NCBI GenBank assembly: GCA_016458225.1
Contig: JAEMGR010000001.1
Span: 124,001 to 188,000, forward strand
Origin: Myxococcaceae bacterium JPH2
GTDB taxonomy: Bacteria; Myxococcota; Myxococcia; Myxococcales; Myxococcaceae
Direction: 5' to 3'
Length of the DNA stretch: 64,000 nucleotides
In this document: positions 7,365 to 17,174 of the stretch, piece after piece
How the letters are laid out: each line of letters starts with the position of its first letter
Position numbering within the stretch: position 1 is the first letter of the stretch
Notes under the pieces: model-generated
Databases searched by the model: none
Told to the model about the DNA's origin: nothing
What the model saw: only the letters and a program-made list of their open reading frames with translations
Program-made: the position numbers and the translations under genes

Positions 7365-9440
7365 TCAGGCTCCCGCGGACACCGCGGTGAGCCGGCCAAC
7401 GGGTCGGATTTGCAGCCCCCCCTCCAGTTCGCCGTAGGTCAGCACCGCCACCTCGGGGAAGGCGCCCTCGCAGAGCTTTCGCAGGGAGCGTCGGACATCG
7501 GGCGCGGTCAGCAACACGGCGCGGCCTCCCGTGGAGATCCGTCGCACCCCTTCCAGGATTTCCGCCACCCGCTCCGGCGCGAGCGCGGGGCCGCGAGGAC
7601 CTCCCGTGCGGAGTGACTCCTCGACCTCGGGATCCACGAGGTAGGCATACAGCGGTCCGGATGGCGCGAACTTGTGACTCAGGTAGCGGTGCAGCGCCTG
7701 CCGGCACCGCTCCGCGAGCGCACCGGCATCTCCTTCCGTCGTCGGGGAGACCAGCGCCTCAAGGATGGTCCGCAGGTCCCGAATGCTCACCTGCTCCTGG
7801 ACGAGCCGCCGCAGCACATCCACCAGCAGCGGCAGCGGCACCTTCTGCACGGCCTCCTTCACCAGGACCGGGGCATGCGCCTCCAGCCCTTCGAGGAGCT
7901 GCTGCACCTCCTGGAGTCCCAGCAGCGCGGAGGCCCTCGCGCTCAGCACAGCGCGCAGATGGTCTGAGATGAGTTCATCGGCCCGTCGCACGGGCACCTG
8001 CGCCATCTCCAGGCGAGCGCGTGCCGCCTCCGTCACACGACAGATGGTGCGCCCAGTGGCGGGCTCCTGGGCTGGCTCCGCCTTCACCTCGAGGAAGGCC
8101 ACCTCACCGGGCTGGGCCAGGGCATACAGCGCCCCCACCATGACCTGGCCCGCGCCCGCCGGTACTTCGTCCAACAGCAAGCGGTACTCCCCGGGCCCCA
8201 GATAGGACGCCTGCGTCCGTACCCGGATACCGGGGACACGAACCCCCAGCTCAAAGAACAGAGCATCGCGCACGGCATTGAGCGTCCGATGCACGAAAGC
8301 GCCCCCTTCCGCCTCAGCCAAGGGCGTCAGGTCTGGAGCGAGGTCCAACGTGAGCGGCGCGACCCCCACGGGCGCACCGCCACGCTCAGACGCAGGAGCC
8401 TCTCCAACCGTCGGAGCCGCCGCCCCCGGTGCCTTGCCCATGGATGGGTCGCCCAGGCTCGACTTCGACACCTCGCGCTGTCGCAACACATGGCCCAGCG
8501 CGCCCAGGGCCCCACCCAGCACGAAGAACGTCCCATGGGGCATTCCAGGAATGCAGGCCAATGCACCACACAGACCCGCTACGACCCAGAGCGTCTTCGC
8601 CTGTCCGAAGAACTGCGAGCCAATCTCCGAGCCCAGTGAGTCCGATTCGTTCTCCGAGGCCACGCGCGTGACGACGAGACCCGCCGCCACCGCGATGCAC
8701 AACGAGGGAATCTGGGACACGAGCCCGTCGCCCATCGCGATGAGCGCGAACGTGGACGCTGCGTCCGCCAGCGACAGGCCGCCCTGGAACATGCCGATGA
8801 GCGTTCCGCCCAGGAGATTCACCGCGACGATGACCAGCCCCGCGATGACATCTCCCTTCACGAACTTCATGGCGCCGTCCATGGCCCCGAACATCTGCGA
8901 CTCGCGCTCCAGGTCGCGCCGTCGTCGCCGCGCCGCAGCCTGGTCGATGGCCCCCGCTCTCAGGTCCGCGTCGATGGACATCTGCTTGCCTGGCATCGCA
9001 TCCAGCGTGAACCGAGCCGAGACCTCCGCCACGCGCTCCGCGCCCTTGGTCACCACCAGCAACTGCACCAGGGTCAAGATGGCGAACACCACCCCGCCCA
9101 CGACGTAGTCGCCGCGCACCACGAACTCACCGAAGGCCTGGATGACGGCCCCCGCATGCCCCTCGGCGAGCGCCAATCGCGTGGACGACACGTTCAAGGA
9201 CAGGCGGAACAACGTGGTGAAGAGCAACAGCGTGGGAAAGGCAGTCACCTTCAACGCATCCCGCGCGTACAGCGCCGCGACCAGGAGCGCCACCGACACC
9301 GCGAGGTTGAGCGCGAGCCCCACATCCAAGAGCCACGCAGGTAAGGGAATGATGAGCGCGCCCAGGACCGCGGCCATGGCCAGCGCCAGCAGCACGTCCG
9401 ACGAAGTTCGCGCCCACACCTTCTCGAGGCGATGAATCAT
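7365..9440 (-). CDS. sctV: Type III secretion export gate protein SctV (FlhA family)
   Basis: 691 residues. SctV/FlhA forms the nonameric export gate in the inner membrane. About seven hydrophobic helices fill residues 20-310, including the family signature region LALNLAVSVALLVAALYARDALKVTAFP... and the FHIPEP-like loop with FRLSLNVSSTRLAL. A soluble C-terminal half of about 340 residues matches the FlhA/SctV cytoplasmic ring-forming domain. The start is ATG 9440, which overlaps the sctU stop as ATGA; a GTG at 9449 is less likely. It is the last gene of the operon, with a strong hairpin right beside its stop. Confidence 0.95.
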   Translation of the reverse strand: MIHRLEKVWARTSSDVLLALAMAAVLGALIIPLPAWLLDVGLALNLAVSVALLVAALYARDALKVTAFPTLLLFTTLFRLSLNVSSTRLALAEGHAGAVIQAFGEFVVRGDYVVGGVVFAILTLVQLLVVTKGAERVAEVSARFTLDAMPGKQMSIDADLRAGAIDQAAARRRRRDLERESQMFGAMDGAMKFVKGDVIAGLVIVAVNLLGGTLIGMFQGGLSLADAASTFALIAMGDGLVSQIPSLCIAVAAGLVVTRVASENESDSLGSEIGSQFFGQAKTLWVVAGLCGALACIPGMPHGTFFVLGGALGALGHVLRQREVSKSSLGDPSMGKAPGAAAPTVGEAPASERGGAPVGVAPLTLDLAPDLTPLAEAEGGAFVHRTLNAVRDALFFELGVRVPGIRVRTQASYLGPGEYRLLLDEVPAGAGQVMVGALYALAQPGEVAFLEVKAEPAQEPATGRTICRVTEAARARLEMAQVPVRRADELISDHLRAVLSARASALLGLQEVQQLLEGLEAHAPVLVKEAVQKVPLPLLVDVLRRLVQEQVSIRDLRTILEALVSPTTEGDAGALAERCRQALHRYLSHKFAPSGPLYAYLVDPEVEESLRTGGPRGPALAPERVAEILEGVRRISTGGRAVLLTAPDVRRSLRKLCEGAFPEVAVLTYGELEGGLQIRPVGRLTAVSAGA
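7368..7393. terminator. Strong hairpin between convergent HU-like gene and sctV
   Basis: GGCTC-CCGCGG, loop ACA, CCGCGG-(T)-GAGCC forms an 11-bp stem with one bulged base. It starts 26 nt after the HU-like stop and lies within the last codons of sctV. It could end transcripts from both directions, although no T-run follows on either strand. Confidence 0.45.
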
Positions 9441-10486
9441 GGCGTCCACCTCGCCGGATGCATGTCCGAGGACTTCGCCTCCAGCGCCGTCCGGAGCACC
9501 ACCGCGGCGGCTTGATACAGCTCCTCGGGAATCGGCTCGCCCACGTCGAAGTGAACCAGGCTGCGCGCCAACGGGACGTCACGGATGATGGGGATGCCCA
9601 GCTCCAGTGCCTCTGCACGCAGGGCCAGGGCCTCTGCTTCACGGCCCTTCGCGACGAGATACGGGGCGTCACACTCCGCGGAGTCGTAGCGCAATGCGAC
9701 CGCGATATGCGTGGGATTGATGACCATGGCGGTGGCCTTTTGCACCCCACGTGCCGCGCCTCCCTGCGAGAGCTGGCGATGGAGGGCCCTGCGCTGCCCC
9801 TTGTTGCGAGGATCTCCCTCGCTCTCCTTGTGCTCTCGGCGCACCTCCTCGCGAGACATCATGAGGTCACGGCGGTGTCGCCATCGCGCCAACAGGTAGT
9901 CGAGCACGCCCAGTACCAACAGCAGCCATGCCAGGCGGAGACACAGCCCCGACAGGCACTCGCCCAGGAACCGCGCGCCACCCACTCCGTCACTCCAGAT
10001 GGACCGCAGCGCATCGGCGCCGCTCGCGACGACTTCGCGCCAGACCACGAAGGCAACCAAGGCCGTCACAACCAAGGCCTTTCCCACCTCCAGCATCGCG
10101 CGCCCGCTGAACAATCGCTTGAATCCCGCGACGGGATTGACTCGCTCCAGACTGGGGAGCACATGCGCCGGATTCAGCTCGAAACCCACCGTCGCCACTG
10201 AAACTCCGAAGGCGGCCAACAGCGCTCCACCGAGCGCGGGACCACTGAGACTCACGACGAGCCTCGCGGCCTCCATCCCCACATCCGGGGCCCGCTGCTC
10301 CAACAGGAGCCGAGCAGTCCAGGCCATCAACTTCGCGCTCCCATCGCGAGCGTGTGACAGGAATCCCAGAAGTCCCCCCAGCGTCACCGCACTGGCGGAC
10401 AGCATACGACTGCGTGCGACCTGGCCCTTGCGCCGCGCCTCTCGCAAGCGCCGAGGTGTCGGCTGTTCTGTCTTCTCCCCGCTCAC
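9437..10486 (-). CDS. sctU: Type III secretion export apparatus switch protein SctU (FlhB family)
   Basis: 349 residues. SctU/FlhB sits beside the export pore and switches substrate class by autocleavage. The N-terminus EKTEQPTPRRLREARRKGQ is the family hallmark. Four hydrophobic segments lie between about residues 30 and 200, and the autocleavage motif NPTH is intact at 257-260, followed by the conserved IAVALRYD. The start GTG 10486 overlaps the sctT stop (GTGA). Upstream in-frame codons are Arg/Gly-rich and overlap sctT, so they were excluded. Confidence 0.95.
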   Translation of the reverse strand: MSGEKTEQPTPRRLREARRKGQVARSRMLSASAVTLGGLLGFLSHARDGSAKLMAWTARLLLEQRAPDVGMEAARLVVSLSGPALGGALLAAFGVSVATVGFELNPAHVLPSLERVNPVAGFKRLFSGRAMLEVGKALVVTALVAFVVWREVVASGADALRSIWSDGVGGARFLGECLSGLCLRLAWLLLVLGVLDYLLARWRHRRDLMMSREEVRREHKESEGDPRNKGQRRALHRQLSQGGAARGVQKATAMVINPTHIAVALRYDSAECDAPYLVAKGREAEALALRAEALELGIPIIRDVPLARSLVHFDVGEPIPEELYQAAAVVLRTALEAKSSDMHPARWTP

Positions 10487-11277
10487 TGAACCTTCTCCCC
10501 AAGCCAGGCCAGTGCCTCGCCGCTCGCCATGACGCCCGCGAGCAATCGCTCGCACATGACGCCCACACCGAGCCAGAGAACAGCTCCGCCTCCCAGGATT
10601 CGCAGCGGAGCGCCCAGCTCCTTCAAGTCGACCTGGGCCGCGACTCGCGAGGCCATCCCCAGGAAGCAATCCACCGCCAGCACCGCGGCGGCGACAGGCG
10701 CCCCCACCGCCAGCCCTGTCGTCATCGCGGCCCCCACCCAAGTCGCGACCCGCACGACGGCGACTTCCGTCGGCACAAAGACACCCAGCCGCACGACACC
10801 AAATCCTCGAATCAATCCGGAGAGAACGAGCGGGAAGGCACTCCCAGAAACCACGAGCGCAAGCAGCAGGTTGTAGAGCCCCTCCCCCGTAGCGGACTCG
10901 CGACTTCCCGCCACGGGCAGACTCGCTTCCGCGGACGTGCCTCGGACGAGATCGATCATGCGCCCCGCCATCCGCGCCGAGTCGAACGGCAAGGCAGCCA
11001 CCAGCCCCATCACCGAGCCCATGACGAACTCCCGCACCACGAGCGCCCCCAGTTCGAAAGGCGTCTCAACGAGTTGCGGCAAGCTCACGCCCGCTTCCAG
11101 GTGTAAGAACAACGAGAGCGCCAGCACCAGTGCCAGCTTCACGGAAGTGGGCGCGGCCTGCCCTCCGAGCAGTGGGCACAGAAAGGCGATCGGGATGAGA
11201 CGTGACGCGCACAGCGCCACCGCGACGAGGTGGGGTACCAGAGCGGTCAGTGACTCGTTCAGCATCGCGGGACTCAC
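10483..11277 (-). CDS. sctT: Type III secretion export apparatus protein SctT (FliR family)
   Basis: 264 residues with six or so hydrophobic segments. SctT/FliR forms the core pore with SctR and SctS. Matching features are ALCASRLIPIAFLCPLLGG near the N-terminus, REFVMGSVMGLVAALPFDSARMAGRMID (the conserved FliR central region) and a hydrophobic C-terminal half. The start GTG 11277 overlaps the sctS stop (GTGA); ATG 11265 is an alternative. The 4-bp overlaps throughout this stretch imply tight translational coupling. Confidence 0.93.
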   Translation of the reverse strand: MSPAMLNESLTALVPHLVAVALCASRLIPIAFLCPLLGGQAAPTSVKLALVLALSLFLHLEAGVSLPQLVETPFELGALVVREFVMGSVMGLVAALPFDSARMAGRMIDLVRGTSAEASLPVAGSRESATGEGLYNLLLALVVSGSAFPLVLSGLIRGFGVVRLGVFVPTEVAVVRVATWVGAAMTTGLAVGAPVAAAVLAVDCFLGMASRVAAQVDLKELGAPLRILGGGAVLWLGVGVMCERLLAGVMASGEALAWLGEKVQ

Positions 11278-11543
11278 AGCGAGACCTCCGCGATGAGCAT
11301 CAAGAGTTGCTGGGTGAAACGAACGAGCTGCGCCGCAATCCACGGTCCCGCGAGCACCAGCGCCGCCACGGCCGCGCACAGCTTGGGCACCACCGAGAGC
11401 GTGCTTTCCTGAATCTGCGTCGTGGCCTGAAAGAGGCTCGCCGCGAAGCCCACCACCAGACTCGCGCCAATCGGAGGCAACGAGGCCAGCACCATCAACA
11501 GCAGCGCCTCGCGCCCCAGGGTGAGCAGCATGTCTTGGGTCAT
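11274..11543 (-). CDS. sctS: Type III secretion export apparatus protein SctS (FliQ family)
   Basis: 89 residues, the standard FliQ/SctS size, with two transmembrane helices. The family pattern is clear: LTLGREALLLMVLASLPPIG, LVVGFAASLFQATTQIQE, then a second helix around AALVLAGPWIAAQ. It forms part of the export pore. The ATG at 11543 lies one base after the sctR stop. Longer in-frame extensions overlap sctR and were excluded. Confidence 0.95.
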   Translation of the reverse strand: MTQDMLLTLGREALLLMVLASLPPIGASLVVGFAASLFQATTQIQESTLSVVPKLCAAVAALVLAGPWIAAQLVRFTQQLLMLIAEVSL

Positions 11544-11544
11544 G

Positions 11545-12270
11545 TCACCGGTACCCCAAGATGAGCCCACGCGCGAGCAGCGCCCAGCCATCCACCGCGA
11601 CGAAGAGCAGGATCTTGAAGGGCAGACTCACCTGACTGGGCGACAAGGTCTGCATCCCCAGGGCGAGCAACACATTGGCGATGACCATGTCCAGGACAAG
11701 GAAGGGTAGGAAGACGATGAAGCCAATCTCAAAGGCCTCTTTCAGCTCCGTGATGACGAAGGCGGGGATGATGACGAACACGTCCTCCTCCTTGACCTGA
11801 GAGGCCTCTTCGGGAGGCCGCAGCTCGCGCGCGAGGTCCGCGAAGCGAGCACGCTCCTCCACGCTGCCGTGCTTCAACAGAAAGGCCCGCAGGGGCTCGG
11901 AGACCCGAGCCGCCGCGACCAGGACCTCAGTGCCAGAGTCCACGTCGCGATAGGCGACCCGCCCCGCGTCGTACATGTGCTCCGCCACGGGCGCCATGAT
12001 GTGCCCGGTCAGCACGGCCGCCAGCCCCGTGAGCACCAAGGTAGGCGGCGCCTGCTGTGTTCCCATCGCCGAGCGAGCCAGGGACAACACCACCGCGATC
12101 TTCGAGAAGCTCGTCAGCATCAAGACCGCGAAGGGCAGCAACGACATGAGCGCGAGCAGCCCCATCATCGCCACGGGGTTTCCCGCGTACGACATCTGCG
12201 ACAGCGACTCTCCCGCCGCGAACGAGGCCGTGGGCGCCAGCAGCGCCAGCCCGGTCAGCACCCGAGTCAT
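11545..12270 (-). CDS. sctR: Type III secretion export apparatus protein SctR (FliP family)
   Basis: 241 residues. SctR/FliP is the main export-pore subunit. It begins with a cleavable signal-like sequence (MTRVLTGLALLAPTASFAAG), typical of flagellar FliP rather than most injectisome SctR proteins. Conserved blocks follow: SLLPFAVLMLTSFSKIAVVLSLARSAMGTQQAPP, an FVIIPAFVITELKEAFEIGF segment, FLPFLVLDMVIANVLLALGM and SLPFKILLFVAVDGWALL. ATG 12270 overlaps the upstream stop by one base (TGATG). Confidence 0.96.
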   Translation of the reverse strand: MTRVLTGLALLAPTASFAAGESLSQMSYAGNPVAMMGLLALMSLLPFAVLMLTSFSKIAVVLSLARSAMGTQQAPPTLVLTGLAAVLTGHIMAPVAEHMYDAGRVAYRDVDSGTEVLVAAARVSEPLRAFLLKHGSVEERARFADLARELRPPEEASQVKEEDVFVIIPAFVITELKEAFEIGFIVFLPFLVLDMVIANVLLALGMQTLSPSQVSLPFKILLFVAVDGWALLARGLILGYR

Positions 12271-12695
12271 CACGCCACCACCTTGGGGAATCCGCGGCGG
12301 TATCGCGAACGCCACAAGAGAGGCAGCGACCGCGCGAAGGGACGCGGCTTTTTCGTCTCGCGGATCTCCGCGAAGGAGTCCCCGTGCACCACCAGATAGC
12401 CACGCCCATCCACCTCCACCAATGCCAATCCACAGCGCTGCGACAGACCCGCCCTCGACACCACCGTCATCCGTGAGGGGGGCACCACCCCAGGCCCCGC
12501 CATCGCGCGACGGCGCCACCACCAGCCCAGCGCGCCGACCACTGAGACACCGAGAATCCCTCGCGCCACCGTCGCCGCCGACACGCCTCCGCCCAAGGGG
12601 ACGGCGGCAAGCAATCCCAGCATCAGCGCGACCGCCCACATGAGCCGCGTCCGAATCGACAGCGATGCCATCCATGCGCGCACGTCGAACCTCAT
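12270..12695 (-). CDS. FliO-like membrane protein in the type III secretion operon
   Basis: 141 residues. Two hydrophobic segments (residues about 18-38 and 45-60) precede a small cytoplasmic domain with the sequence SQRCGLALVEVDGRGYLVVHGDS. This resembles the FliO core, where a GLALVEVDG-like beta-strand motif is typical. FliO is a flagellar chaperone for FliP assembly, and this gene sits exactly where fliO sits, between the FliM/N homologue and the FliP homologue. FliO is normally absent from injectisomes. The start ATG overlaps the sctQ stop. Similarity is short, so the call rests on motif plus position. Confidence 0.65.
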   Translation of the reverse strand: MRFDVRAWMASLSIRTRLMWAVALMLGLLAAVPLGGGVSAATVARGILGVSVVGALGWWWRRRAMAGPGVVPPSRMTVVSRAGLSQRCGLALVEVDGRGYLVVHGDSFAEIRETKKPRPFARSLPLLWRSRYRRGFPKVVA

Positions 12696-13855
12696 GGCAG
12701 CAGCGCGAGGATGCGGGCACCAACCTCGCCCTCAATATCGACCAACTCCGCTCGCGCGACTGCCCGTTCTCCCACGCGCAGCAGCACCGGATCACTCGCG
12801 TTGATGTGCAGCGGGACCAGCGCCCCCGGCCGCATCCCCATCAACTCCGTCAGCGGCAACATCACGCGGGCCAGCTCAATCTCCACGTCCACGGGAAGCG
12901 GGGGCATTCCCTCGCTCGACTCACTGCCTGCGACCATGACCAACTCCTGGGATGACGCGCCCGAGTGAGCGCGGTTCAACGAGAAACCATCCGACTGAAA
13001 CGACCCGCTCAGGGCGAACCCCGAGGTCACCAGTCGCCCTGGACCTCGGATGTGGCCCGCCTCGCGGTGCACACCCTCGAAAACGATGACGTCTCTGCCT
13101 CGCAGGGACTCCAGCGCGCCCGGCGAGAGCCGGCTCCGTCCAGCGCGACATCGCGCAGGAATCGCCACCGACAGCCATTGCGACGCGGGCTCCCGCACCG
13201 GTGCACGGGGCAGGGATTGAAGCGCGACCTGGAGCGAGTGCGCCGGCAACACGAGGCGCGCGCCTCCAACCACCTCCCCCAGACGCACGCGCAGCTCGAT
13301 GCCCACGTGACGCCGACGCGCCTCCATCCGTGCCACGACGTCCGCACCGCGCGCCGTCACCGCAAGCAGCCGCGGTCCCAGCAGGTCATGGGGCACGCCC
13401 TGCGCTCGCGTCGCCGAGAGCACCGCGAGGAGCAAGAACACCAGTGTGGACTCCTCCAGACGGGTGAGGGCCTCCAACGGAGCGGCGCGGCGACCTGCCC
13501 CCGCCAATTGCCCCAGCGCGGAGAAAACCAGGGAGGGCTCCAGCTCCAGGACCGCCACTCCACCCACCGCGGACAGCTCCAGCACCGCGAAGACATTTCC
13601 GGCTGCGAGCCCCGATGCCGGAACGAGCACCGACTCCAACACCCGCGCCTCCGCGGAAACGCTGACGTCCAGCTCGCGCGTCAGCGCTTCACACGCGACA
13701 CGCAGTGCCGCATCCCCTAGCGCAGCCGTATCCGGGCGCTGAGACAGGAGCAGATGCGCACGGGAGAGCTTGCGCATGGCCAACCAGGTCGGCCGTGCGC
13801 TGCGCTGGGATGAAGAAGAGGCACGAAACGGATTCGTCATGGACTTGGGCGCCAT
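12692..13855 (-). CDS. sctQ: Type III secretion C-ring protein SctQ (FliM/FliN family)
   Basis: 387 residues. The C-terminal 75 residues (LPVDVEIELARVMLPLTELMGMRPGALVPL ... GERAVARAELVDIEGEVGARI) form a SpoA/FliN domain. The preceding 300 residues resemble the variable N-terminal part of SctQ proteins. SctQ builds the cytoplasmic sorting platform that binds substrates. The start is uncertain: ATG 13855 or ATG 13840, neither with a good ribosome site. The frame is open upstream without any start codon back to the previous gene's stop, leaving an unexplained 108-bp gap in an otherwise overlapping operon. Confidence 0.85.
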   Translation of the reverse strand: MAPKSMTNPFRASSSSQRSARPTWLAMRKLSRAHLLLSQRPDTAALGDAALRVACEALTRELDVSVSAEARVLESVLVPASGLAAGNVFAVLELSAVGGVAVLELEPSLVFSALGQLAGAGRRAAPLEALTRLEESTLVFLLLAVLSATRAQGVPHDLLGPRLLAVTARGADVVARMEARRRHVGIELRVRLGEVVGGARLVLPAHSLQVALQSLPRAPVREPASQWLSVAIPARCRAGRSRLSPGALESLRGRDVIVFEGVHREAGHIRGPGRLVTSGFALSGSFQSDGFSLNRAHSGASSQELVMVAGSESSEGMPPLPVDVEIELARVMLPLTELMGMRPGALVPLHINASDPVLLRVGERAVARAELVDIEGEVGARILALLP

Positions 13856-13963: not shown

Positions 13964-14443
13964 TCAGCGCGTCGCCTCGCGAATGAGTCGTGCGGCGAGC
14001 GCCTCCATTCCGGAGGCGCCTTCCTGGGCTGTGCCCTCGAGCACCTGCCCTGGAAAGAGGCTGCGGTGATACGGAGGCAGCGCGCGGTAGAGCGCCTTTC
14101 GCAATGGGCCGCTCGCGGAGGCCATCACCGCGCGCAGTCGCTCCGCCGCGTCTTCGCGTTCACCAAAGGCCATGGCGACCCTCGCTTGACGGCGCGCCGA
14201 CTGCAGCGTGGCGACCTCCGCCAACAGGCCTCGGGCTTGCTCGGCATCCGCAGCAACCAGTCCGTCCAACAACTCCAAGGCTCGGTCCCGGGCCAGGGCG
14301 TGAAGCACCAGGACGCAGCGCTCCAACGAGAGGGGTAGCGAAGGAGATGCCTTCGGCTCCGACTGGACGTGCGGCCCTGGATTCGGAGCAGCCACCGTCC
14401 TCCGCACAGGCCGCGAGGCCCGTCCCGCTCGCGTCACGTCCAT
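13964..14443 (-). CDS. Unrecognised protein in the type III secretion operon, between sctJ and sctQ
   Basis: 159 residues; not recognised. The first 35 residues are basic and Pro-rich. The rest is predicted all-helical (LERCVLVLHALARDRALELLDGL, AEQARGLLAEVATLQSARRQ, AERLRAVMASASGPLRKALYRAL). No membrane segment or signal peptide. ATG 14443 has GAGGG six bases upstream. It occupies the place of fliG (after fliF) in flagellar operons, or of sctK/sctL in injectisome operons. A FliG-like or SctK-like adaptor between the SctJ ring and the SctQ platform is my inference from position and helical character only. Confidence 0.6.
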   Translation of the reverse strand: MDVTRAGRASRPVRRTVAAPNPGPHVQSEPKASPSLPLSLERCVLVLHALARDRALELLDGLVAADAEQARGLLAEVATLQSARRQARVAMAFGEREDAAERLRAVMASASGPLRKALYRALPPYHRSLFPGQVLEGTAQEGASGMEALAARLIREATR

Positions 14444-14453
14444 GCGGAGGCCC

Positions 14454-15257
14454 TCATGTGACCTTGCGGGGCGCGGCCGGCGTCAGCACGGGGCGCGGTG
14501 GGGTGGTCGGCACCGAGGACGGCTCACTCCGCATCCGATAGTGTTTCAGCTTCAGCGTCACCAGCACCAGGGCCACCGCCAGCACGGTGAGAACCATCCC
14601 AAGTGCCGCGAGGAGGATTCGCAGGCGCGCCAGCGGAGACGCATTCGGCTGCGCCACGGGCATCACTCGGGTCGTCACCTCGTCCACGAGCAGGGACACG
14701 CCCTCCGGCGAAAGCCCCTCCACCCCACCCGCGAGGAGCGTCTTGAGTGACTCCGTGGACTGGCGCAGATGCGCGGCGCGACCGGGTTCGGCCCGCAGCA
14801 TGGCCGCGGCCTTCGATGCGGCCACGGGTTGTCCCGACCGAGGTAGAGAGGGCAGCACCAGATGCACTCGCGCCAGCAGGACACCGTCCACGGTTTGCAG
14901 CGTCTTCTCCAGCTCCCGCTCCAGCACCCGCGTTCGACAGACCTGCTCCTCCAGGGGGGTGCGCACCAGTCCGCTTCCGCCGAAGACTTCACATCCCGAC
15001 TCCTCGGGCGGACGCGGCAACCCCAGCTCCGCGAGAATGCGAACAGCGTCGGAGGCATGCTCTTCCTCGACCTCCACCGACCATGAGGGCTTCTTGCCCC
15101 CTTCCGCGACCTTGCGCGCATCGAGCCCCCGCTCGATGAGGACCGTCTGAAGGAGGTTGGCCTGCCGCTCATCCAACCCGTGTTGAATCTGCTCACGACA
15201 TGCCGTGACACCCTGAAGACAGAGCAGGAGCAGCACGGCTCGACACAAGAAACGCAT
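14454..15257 (-). CDS. sctJ: Type III secretion inner-membrane ring lipoprotein SctJ (YscJ/PrgK family)
   Basis: 267 residues. A signal peptide ends in a lipobox LQGVTAC, so C20 would be lipidated. The YscJ/FliF ring-building motifs follow: QIQHGLDERQANLLQTVLIERGLDARKV, VEVEEEHASDAVRILAELGLPRP, and RTRVLERELEKTLQTVDGVLLARVHLVLP. A transmembrane helix lies near residues 215-238 with a basic cytoplasmic tail, as in YscJ and PrgK. It forms the inner MS-like ring of the injectisome. A flagellar FliF would be twice as long, so this gene identifies the system as non-flagellar. Confidence 0.94.
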   Translation of the reverse strand: MRFLCRAVLLLLCLQGVTACREQIQHGLDERQANLLQTVLIERGLDARKVAEGGKKPSWSVEVEEEHASDAVRILAELGLPRPPEESGCEVFGGSGLVRTPLEEQVCRTRVLERELEKTLQTVDGVLLARVHLVLPSLPRSGQPVAASKAAAMLRAEPGRAAHLRQSTESLKTLLAGGVEGLSPEGVSLLVDEVTTRVMPVAQPNASPLARLRILLAALGMVLTVLAVALVLVTLKLKHYRMRSEPSSVPTTPPRPVLTPAAPRKVT

Positions 15258-15269
15258 GCGAGGAGTTCC

Positions 15270-15746
15270 TCAAATCTGGGTCTGCAGAACCTGCTTCACG
15301 CCGCTCGTGGCCTTCTCGACAACCTTGCCCGCGAGATCGAGTTCCTGACTCGCGCGGTAGACTCGCGCTTGAAGGCCCAGCAGCTCGGTGGCTGTGAAGG
15401 TGCGGCCGGACTCGGCCAGCCGCATGACGTGGTCCAATTGCTTGCGCGCCTGGTCGACGCCCTCCAACACCTGAGCCACATGCTGCGCTCGCGCGGATTG
15501 AACCGAGCCCACTCGCGTGTCGGGCTTCGCGCCCTCCACCGCAGCGCACGTCTTCCGCGTGTCGTCCACGCGCGATGGACTCCGCGCCACCTCCGAGGTA
15601 GCCGCGCCCTCTCGCGGACCCGATACTCGCGGGGGCCCCGAGCTCTTCGGCAGCTCCCGCGCACCGTCCAGGACGTCTCGAAACGACTCTCTCGGCGAGA
15701 CACCCGAGGCCACGCTTCCCGTGGGCCCCATCTTGTCGATGCCCAT
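15270..15746 (-). CDS. sctI: Probable inner-rod protein SctI (YscI/PrgJ-like)
   Basis: 158 residues, longer than typical SctI (80-140). The C-terminal 60 residues carry the expected pattern: TFTATELLGLQARVYRASQE, then LAGKVVEKATSGVKQVLQTQI, which corresponds to the helical C-terminus that polymerises in the rod. The N-terminal 90 residues are low-complexity Ser/Pro/Arg-rich, without secondary structure. It lies between sctJ and the sctF-like gene, as in SPI-1 (prgI-prgJ-prgK). Spacing to its neighbours is 7 and 12 nt. The identity is inferred from the tail motif plus synteny. Confidence 0.75.
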   Translation of the reverse strand: MGIDKMGPTGSVASGVSPRESFRDVLDGARELPKSSGPPRVSGPREGAATSEVARSPSRVDDTRKTCAAVEGAKPDTRVGSVQSARAQHVAQVLEGVDQARKQLDHVMRLAESGRTFTATELLGLQARVYRASQELDLAGKVVEKATSGVKQVLQTQI

Positions 15747-15753
15747 GGGCGCC

Positions 15754-16203
15754 TCAGCGGATGTTGTTGATGGCCGCCTTCGCGGAGTCGTGGCGGACCT
15801 TCATGATGTTGGAGATGGCGTTGTGCTCGCGGCTCTCCTGCTGCATCTCGTTCTGGAGCTGGAGGTAGGCCATGTTGAACTTCTGGCCCTCCGCGTTCAT
15901 GAGCTTCTGGGCCTCCATCAAGTCCCACGCATCGCCCTGCCCCGCGCTGCTGCCCCCCACGCTCGTGCCCCCCTTCAGCGGCACCGTCGTCGACCCCACG
16001 GAGGAGGCCACCACCGAACTCACGCTGGAGATGGCCGCGCTCGTGATGGGCCCCCCCGGAATCATCCCGCCCACGAGCCCCGCGCCCGTGCGCACGACTT
16101 CGCGCGCCGCTCGCGCGAGGCTGGGGCCGAACTCACTTCGCGGCGTCTGCCGAGCAACAGTCTGGGTAATGGTCAGCGAGGGAAGTGCGTGGGATGAGTC
16201 CAA
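15754..16203 (-). CDS. Candidate needle protein (SctF-like), first gene of the type III secretion operon
   Basis: 149 residues from a TTG start at 16203. No ATG or GTG lies suitably, while GGAGG (minus strand, 16210-16214) sits six bases upstream of the TTG. The central part is Gly/Ser/Val-rich (GLVGGMIPGG ... SSVSSVVASSVGS). The last 60 residues form a probable helical hairpin ending ISNIMKVRHDSAKAAINNIR. That end resembles the PrgI needle C-terminus, and the gene position before sctI and sctJ equals that of prgI. Needle proteins are about 80 residues, so the 80-residue N-terminal extension would be unusual. The call is an inference. Confidence 0.5.
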   Translation of the reverse strand: MDSSHALPSLTITQTVARQTPRSEFGPSLARAAREVVRTGAGLVGGMIPGGPITSAAISSVSSVVASSVGSTTVPLKGGTSVGGSSAGQGDAWDLMEAQKLMNAEGQKFNMAYLQLQNEMQQESREHNAISNIMKVRHDSAKAAINNIR

Positions 16204-16209
16204 GGGATG

Positions 16210-16214
16210 CCTCC
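16210..16214 (-). promoter_or_regulatory. Ribosome binding site deciding a TTG start
   Basis: GGAGG on the minus strand, six bases before TTG 16203. The other in-frame starts lie far upstream in sequence with no protein-like composition, so this site fixes the start of the sctF-like gene. Confidence 0.55.
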
Positions 16215-16238
16215 GGCGATGGGTCGCCGTGGGCTCAT

Positions 16239-16254
16239 TCCAATGGGCATGCCA
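16239..16254 (-). promoter_or_regulatory. Weak sigma-54-like element upstream of the type III secretion operon
   Basis: On the minus strand TGGCATG, four bases, TTGGA resembles the -24/-12 consensus TGGCACG-N4-TTGCA. It stands about 25 nt before the TTG start, with the expected geometry. The nearly invariant GC at -12 is GG here, so the match is doubtful. Confidence 0.2.
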
Positions 16255-16430
16255 GCCGCCAAGCCGTGGGAATGACAGGCGGAACAACCTGCGGCGCCCC
16301 CACGCGCCGCTCCCATCCCGGAGAAGGCGTCCACCGACGTGGACGGAGCACGGACCGCTCGAAAACTTGCCTCTCGGCCGGGCTGCTCCAGAGTTGTCGC
16401 ACCCTGTCGCTCGCGAAGGAGAGAGACCCG

Positions 16431-16757
16431 GTGATGACCTCCCCTGGTGCACCCAGCACGGCCGAACGCTTTCACCCTCGCGTCGAGGCCAATCTCCCCG
16501 TCAAGGTGCTCCTGTCCGGGCGCACCGTGTCGGCTCAGGCGCGCGACGTGTCCATGGCCGGGCTGTTCCTTCTCGCGCACGCGGCGGAGACCCAGCAGAC
16601 CCTCACCATCGCCTTGCCGCTACCGGGTGACCGAGAGCTCGTCACCACGTGCGAGATTCGGCGGCGCGAGGTGGATGGCGTGGCGCTGGAGTTTGGTCCC
16701 CTGGACTGGGACGACCTCATCGCCCTGGCGCGCTTCCTCCATCCGCGCCTGCCCTGA
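16431..16757 (+). CDS. PilZ domain protein (single domain)
   Basis: 108 residues. Both cyclic-di-GMP contact motifs of PilZ domains are present: RFHPR (RxxxR) near the N-terminus and DVSMAG (DxSxxG) about 30 residues later. Cyclic-di-GMP binding is therefore plausible. GTG 16431 lies nine bases after AAGGAG; ATG 16434 is the alternative start. It is transcribed divergently from the type III secretion operon, across a 227-bp shared upstream region, and converges on the response regulator gene. The partner protein is unknown; myxobacterial PilZ proteins act in motility, exopolysaccharide and development. Confidence 0.9.
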   Translation: MMTSPGAPSTAERFHPRVEANLPVKVLLSGRTVSAQARDVSMAGLFLLAHAAETQQTLTIALPLPGDRELVTTCEIRRREVDGVALEFGPLDWDDLIALARFLHPRLP

Positions 16758-16772
16758 GCGAAACGCCGACGG

Positions 16773-17174
16773 TCAGCTCGACGCGGCCATCCGCGTGCGC
16801 AGCCGCTCCACCAGCGCCATCAACTCCGCGCCTCGGAATGGCTTGTGGATGTAGCCATCCGCGCCCGCGGCCGTCGCGCTCTCCACATCCGACTTCTTCG
16901 CCTTCCCGGTCAGCATGTAGAGCGGCACGCCCGCCGTGGACGGATCGCTCTTGAGGATGCGGCAGACCGAAACGCCATCGAGTTGCGGTAGCACCACGTC
17001 CATCAAGATGAGGTGGAAGGGCTGACTCTTCGCGAGCTTCAGGCCCTCCAACCCATTCGCAGCGCACACCACATCCACAGCGCCATCGCTCAACATGGAG
17101 CGGACGAGTTCGCGAATGACGGGTTCGTCCTCGACGAGCAGGATGTGGAAAGGTGCCTGGGCGTTGACGGCCAT
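16773..17174 (-). CDS. Receiver-only response regulator (CheY-like)
   Basis: 133 residues from ATG 17174 (AGGA four bases upstream). One receiver domain with acidic pocket E15-D16, phospho-acceptor D59 (LILMDVVLPQLDG), T89 (LTGK) and K111 (HKPF). There is no output domain, so it must signal through a partner. No histidine kinase is adjacent. In-frame extension upstream to 17417 is Arg/Cys-rich and rejected. Confidence 0.93.
   Translation of the reverse strand: MAVNAQAPFHILLVEDEPVIRELVRSMLSDGAVDVVCAANGLEGLKLAKSQPFHLILMDVVLPQLDGVSVCRILKSDPSTAGVPLYMLTGKAKKSDVESATAAGADGYIHKPFRGAELMALVERLRTRMAASS

Follow-up and report, generated by a model that had tools for sequence, protein, structure and literature searches.

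Although the type III secretion systems (T3SSs) of myxobacteria have been described as needleless, they contain relatives of the needle subunit SctF. One such sctF-like gene lies in a window of 64,000 nucleotides from Myxococcaceae bacterium JPH2 (the window is the whole stretch of DNA that was analyzed) and probably encodes an axial subunit, of rod or needle type, of the short myxobacterial T3SS. Support for this reading comes from the homology of its C-terminal part to SctF, from a conserved N-terminal block with a short motif, from its place ahead of sctI and sctJ, and from its co-inheritance with the system. A preliminary description of this DNA had proposed a candidate needle subunit; kinship to SctF, the prgI position and the TTG start hold up, but the protein is too long, and scores too far below curated cut-offs, to be filed as a needle protein proper.

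The gene occupies positions 15754..16203 of the minus strand, with 149 codons, a TTG start and a TGA stop, and has relatives in 122 of the 145 genomes of the class; translation of the frame from 16203 to 15754 confirms the length given earlier, 149 residues against the usual 80 or so. But where does the protein begin? A ribosome-binding-site-like GGAGG (16210..16214, minus strand) lies six bases 5′ of the TTG, as noted in the preliminary description, which took it to fix the start. The DNA alone is insufficient, however, because the frame stays open upstream to a GTG at 16452 (a 232-aa version), and relatives have to decide. In all 74 relatives, with starts chosen as the start codon nearest the homology boundary, the homologous site is a start codon (53 ATG, 13 GTG and 8 TTG), and a piece of AGGAGGA precedes it by 3–10 nt in 72 of the 74; in 32 of 71, no alternative start codon exists between this site and the upstream stop. 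Given these start sites and ribosome-site-like motifs, the GTG at 16452 is not favored, and homologs starting elsewhere, which would have counted against the earlier proposal, were not found. Conservation of TTG itself, suggested as a check, is rejected: the start site is conserved, the codon is not. We thus regard the gene as real, with its start at TTG backed by relatives. Two possible regulators lie next to it: a divergent PilZ-domain gene (16185–16757, plus strand), followed by a response-regulator receiver gene (16773–17174, minus strand).

The likeness of the last residues to the PrgI C-terminus, seen in the preliminary description, is borne out by profiles. When the C-terminal profile of the family (39 sequences) is aligned by hhalign with a small profile of canonical SctF, built from stretches of MxiH, EscF, BsaL and YscF helix 2, the probability is 90.2% and the E-value, which refers to a single comparison, is 1.6e-6, over 37 gap-free columns that run to the C-terminus. 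None of 100 column shuffles scores as high, and seven control alignments, which cover both SctI proteins and five further families of these loci, reach at most 0.7% (long-locus SctI); SctI, the chaperone, SctL, SctO and SctJ are rejected as relatives by profile comparison. On this evidence from aligned profiles, homology to SctF covers the last 37 residues, and the protein has the C-terminal (polymerizing) helix expected of that family.

Single-sequence scans are less telling. Taken alone, the window protein scores 12.7 bits (E 0.15) for PF09392, whose cut-off is 29.4, is not listed for TIGR02105 in an NCBIfam scan, where the curated SctF cut-off is not reached, and at 149 residues lies outside the SctF range of about 70–90. 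Scanned member by member, the family gives PF09392 in 19 of 53 (best E 3.3e-5) and TIGR02105 in 4 of 53, and relatives in two of the 145 genomes (G031 and G072) pass the curated PF09392 cut-off. Other profiles respond too: PF06266 (HrpF) in 22 of 53 members (best E 0.0036; window protein 0.065) and NF053530 (HrpA pilin) in 24 of 53 (best E 2e-5; window protein 0.19, with 12.1 bits against a cut-off of 34), and for the window protein HrpF, HrpA and IATP score as well as PF09392. Profiles of the sctF-like family alone found no needle in the PDB. The protein is SctF-related yet fails on length and on cut-offs, and it is not classed as SctF proper.

All genes of the short locus lie on the minus strand. 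Downstream of the sctF-like gene by 7 nt is sctI (inner rod; 15270..15746), with a sub-threshold PF17001 match (E 1.4e-4, 22.7 against 32.4 bits), followed by sctJ (inner ring lipoprotein; 14454..15257; PF01514, E 1.1e-18), so that the gene does stand in the prgI position, as had been claimed, and the order sctF–sctI–sctJ is present in the window. A conserved 159-aa gene without a credible Pfam match (13964..14443) separates sctJ from sctQ (C-ring, FliM/FliN-like; 12692..13855; PF01052, E 1.2e-15). The export genes follow: sctR (11545..12795; PF00813, E 5.4e-64), the start of which was set mechanically and overlaps sctQ, sctS (11274..11591; PF01313, E 1.5e-25), sctT (10483..11379; PF01311, E 8.6e-33), sctU (9437..10741; PF01312, E 1.1e-90), and sctV (7365..9449; PF00771, E 1.1e-207). 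Neither the ATPase SctN nor SctD turned up in the ORFs scanned, which cover part of the window's first 32.7 kb, and the ORFs scanned in the short locus hold no other needle candidate. The remark that the system lacks a secretin also proves right for the neighborhood of both T3SS loci; the genome has three secretin genes, and the one on the same contig is ~123 kb away.

This arrangement is widely kept. Across 80 loci of relatives, of which Citreicoccus inhibens M34 is the nearest with a name, sctI lies within 500 nt downstream in 62 and at 1.6–4 kb in 10; seven have no sctI match, and one has no room for it. In the gene lists of three of these seven (L146, L159 and L160), no T3SS gene was recognized. 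The sctF-like gene also travels with sctJ: of the 145 class genomes, 121 have both and 20 neither, one (G023) has the sctF-like gene alone, at a contig end, and three (G012, G047 and G096) have sctJ alone, the identity of a few unlisted negative genomes being worked out by elimination. Because the genomes are related, the Fisher p of 2e-20 for this co-occurrence is not a probability of chance.

The family alignment divides the protein into parts of very different constancy. Residues 6–60 (16024..16188, minus strand) form a conserved block (R18-Q-T-P...F-G-x-x-L...P49...SAAVS) common to the short- and long-locus paralogs; the Gly/Ser-rich linker of residues 61–88 (15940..16023) is the sole variable part, with a mean entropy of 2.44 bits and an occupancy of 0.82; residues 104–149 are near-invariant (1.10 bits on average) and include the SctF-type helix of residues 113–149 (15757..15867). 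Within the N-terminal block, residues 25–29 (16117..16131) make up an F-x-x-x-hydrophobic motif, a candidate export-gate docking signal: 74 of 75 sequences have F25, each of the 74 with a hydrophobic residue at +4. SctI carries a like motif (F in 104 of 110, with a hydrophobic residue at +4 in 103 of the 104), as does SctO (15 of 16, and 15 of 15), to our knowledge not a known substrate; as SctO has it too, the motif alone proves little. F-x-x-x-phi is also the formula of the flagellar gate recognition motif. In flagella, a gate recognition motif docks early subunits at FlhB, with FlgD residues 36–40 as the case in point (PMC8983047). The conserved block together with a motif shared with SctI suggests that the N-terminal region may be an export or assembly signal rather than an envelope-crossing extension. 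No evidence was found for the envelope-crossing role proposed earlier for the additional Gly/Ser/Val-rich segment, and residues 6–60 turn out to be a conserved, motif-bearing block.

Structure prediction adds little beyond the C-terminal helix. The AlphaFold model of the window protein (75 sequences; pLDDT 62, pTM 0.25) has a confident helix at 90–148, weak helices at 25–42 and 55–66, and no confident hairpin partner for the long helix. The preliminary description would have given up the needle idea if no helical hairpin were predicted; none is, but a pTM of 0.25 is too low to refute it. The long-locus paralog (24 sequences; pTM 0.19) has the same layout, with helices at 29–51, 61–70 and 138–186. 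A Foldseek search with the window-protein model, at its pTM of 0.25, returned no PDB match.

Where does this paralog belong? It lies in the second T3SS of the genome, the long one, along with a 73-residue needle-like gene in four tandem copies, 96–100% identical (L163:9610-11187, at G000:C12:187609-189186 of the same genome), between chaperone-like genes and sctV. In related genomes, one cluster can contain as many as seven (G121; six in G129, five in G043). When the PDB is searched with a profile of 19 such small proteins, the EscF needle chain ranks first (E 3.9e-5), and a match spanning all of MxiH has an E-value of only 0.59. Ten of the 19 match PF09392 at E<=1, with 4.9e-5 as the best value; the JPH2 copy is not one of them. 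The C-terminal helix of the small proteins matches that of the window family at 97.7% (E 1.4e-12) in a profile–profile comparison, in which the reversed profile gives 0.9%, 100 shuffles at most 29.3% and other families at most 2.7%. Run against 23,684 ORFs, the small-protein profile also picks up the window protein (E 6.3e-5), and all 247 matches at E<=1 in that set belong to the small needle-like or window-type families; with window-family members counted, 121 of the 145 genomes have a match. At the corresponding position, G031 has two tandem larger proteins; the genome search puts both above the PF09392 cut-off, and one of them, scanned alone, reaches 30.4 bits (cut-off 29.4). Myxococcus xanthus AM003 carries both larger paralogs, one small needle-like gene, and a further copy truncated by a contig end. 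Orphan small needle-like copies lie far from the long T3SS in G043 (L221, L222 and L223) and G129 (L227). In the long locus, sctU has as its neighbor a second, short gene that looks like the C-terminal portion of SctU (L065:12970-13260, L163:7508-7789 and L220:1599-1883).

Needle-like C-termini are also found on much larger proteins. A 575-aa protein (L225:327-2054) is of the NolX type (translocon; PF05819, 35.3 bits against a cut-off of 26.1), and a 514-aa protein of M. xanthus AM003 (L230:2884-4428) scores 24.2 bits, below that cut-off; proteins of 434 and 343 aa (L226:2433-3737 and L228:2374-3405), encoded by genomes within the same order, have no Pfam domain. A search of the JPH2 genome for NolX had no match, nor did its controls, so it is uninformative. 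In G011:C1, a 390-aa DUF1521 protein (L220:4740-5912; 51 against 23.6 bits) lies between two needle-like genes; DUF1521 has been mentioned together with type III-secreted NopE-like proteins (PMC6506597), and this protein may be an effector of the long system.

These larger proteins bear on the most serious competitor of the axial reading, in which the sctF-like protein would be a secreted, non-repeating tip, cap or translocator-like protein with a borrowed needle-type C-terminal helix. The 575-aa NolX-type and 514-aa AM003 proteins, which carry a like C-terminus after other domains, and an N-terminal block that is not needle-like speak for it; the constant placing beside sctI, the want of any other recognizable domain, and a short locus whose scanned ORFs offer no other needle candidate make it unlikely. 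A second inner-rod protein of SctI type, unrelated to SctF, would also adjoin sctI and carry the same N-terminal motif, but the profile scores 2.7% and 1.9% against SctI of the two loci, compared with 90% against SctF and 97.7% against the small needle-like family; we consider this explanation quite improbable and, at the level of sequence, largely refuted.

Could the protein stay in the cytoplasm? Small helical proteins are found among the chaperones of T3SS needles, and export of the sctF-like protein is itself only presumed, so a chaperone or regulator with a helix that merely mimics the needle has something in its favor; homology to an exported subunit, a near-invariant C-terminus that ends as SctF does, and an N-terminal region laid out as in early substrates leave it hardly probable. 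That the frame is a chance ORF or remnant, as its low-complexity, GC-rich sequence and upstream continuation might hint, has virtually no chance of being right: presence in 122 of 145 genomes with a conserved C-terminus, start site and ribosome site already refutes it.

If the protein is an axial subunit, it would be an early substrate that docks at SctU via its F-x-x-x-hydrophobic motif, passes the SctRST gate unfolded, and polymerizes atop SctI by its C-terminal helix to form a short hollow rod or needle; by analogy with flagellar rod proteins, the N-terminal block would function in export and assembly. Lacking a linked secretin, the rod or needle may be periplasmic or may exit via the channel of another system. 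In the long system, the paralog might act as an adaptor that joins SctI to a needle of tandem small subunits. A wider picture is plausible, though somewhat less likely than not: the “needleless” myxobacterial T3SSs might not be needleless at all, but might have a rod or adaptor (the sctF-like protein and its long paralog), a needle from small tandem genes, and larger proteins resembling tips or translocators, in part of NolX type, as a flagellum-like family sharing one C-terminal helix; in that case the predation T3SS* would assemble a true needle that exits via another system's channel, e.g., the Kil/Tad secretin.

The name “needleless T3SS*” reportedly originated in a 2022 study. Abby and Rocha (2012; PMC3459982) give both Myxo loci as lacking SctF and a secretin, place these systems at the root of the non-flagellar T3SSs and infer a loss of SctF; the M. 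xanthus T3SS* is termed needleless by Herrou (2025; PMC12075869) and in a 2023 review (PMC10433427), a view adopted in a 2024 study (PMC11509652). Later work on Myxococcus predation likewise has a needleless T3SS*, with Kil pilus tips possibly taking over the needle's job. No report of a myxobacterial needle gene was found in the open-licence literature. With needle-related genes in both systems, the chief ground for inferring that SctF was lost falls away, and a conserved one in the “needleless” machine of a predatory soil bacterium means that the absence of a needle deserves re-testing; both systems now offer specific genes to delete, to tag, and to seek by cryo-tomography at prey contact sites.

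How does the protein compare with known axial subunits? Flagellar rod and hook (early axial) proteins share its plan of conserved N-terminal block, variable middle and conserved C-terminal helix, and its F-x-x-x-hydrophobic motif resembles their gate recognition motif, with docking putative; no flagellar axial family in Pfam matches it. HrpA pilins (NF053530) and HrpF (PF06266) have the same Gly/Ser-rich stretch before the C-terminal helix, but these matches are weak (E only 0.19 and 0.065 for the window protein), and composition may drive part of the score. The small needle-like proteins of the long myxobacterial T3SS, whose C-terminal helix is homologous, differ in being 71–77 residues long, multicopy, often equipped with an AP-type loop, and devoid of the N-terminal block. 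From SctF itself (MxiH, PrgI, EscF and YscF; PF09392, TIGR02105), the window protein differs in length (149 against about 80 residues), in a first helix and PxxP-type loop that are not recognizable, in its extra conserved N-terminal block, and in scores below the curated cut-offs; it shares with SctF the 37-residue helix that ends at the C-terminus and the gene order ahead of sctI and sctJ.
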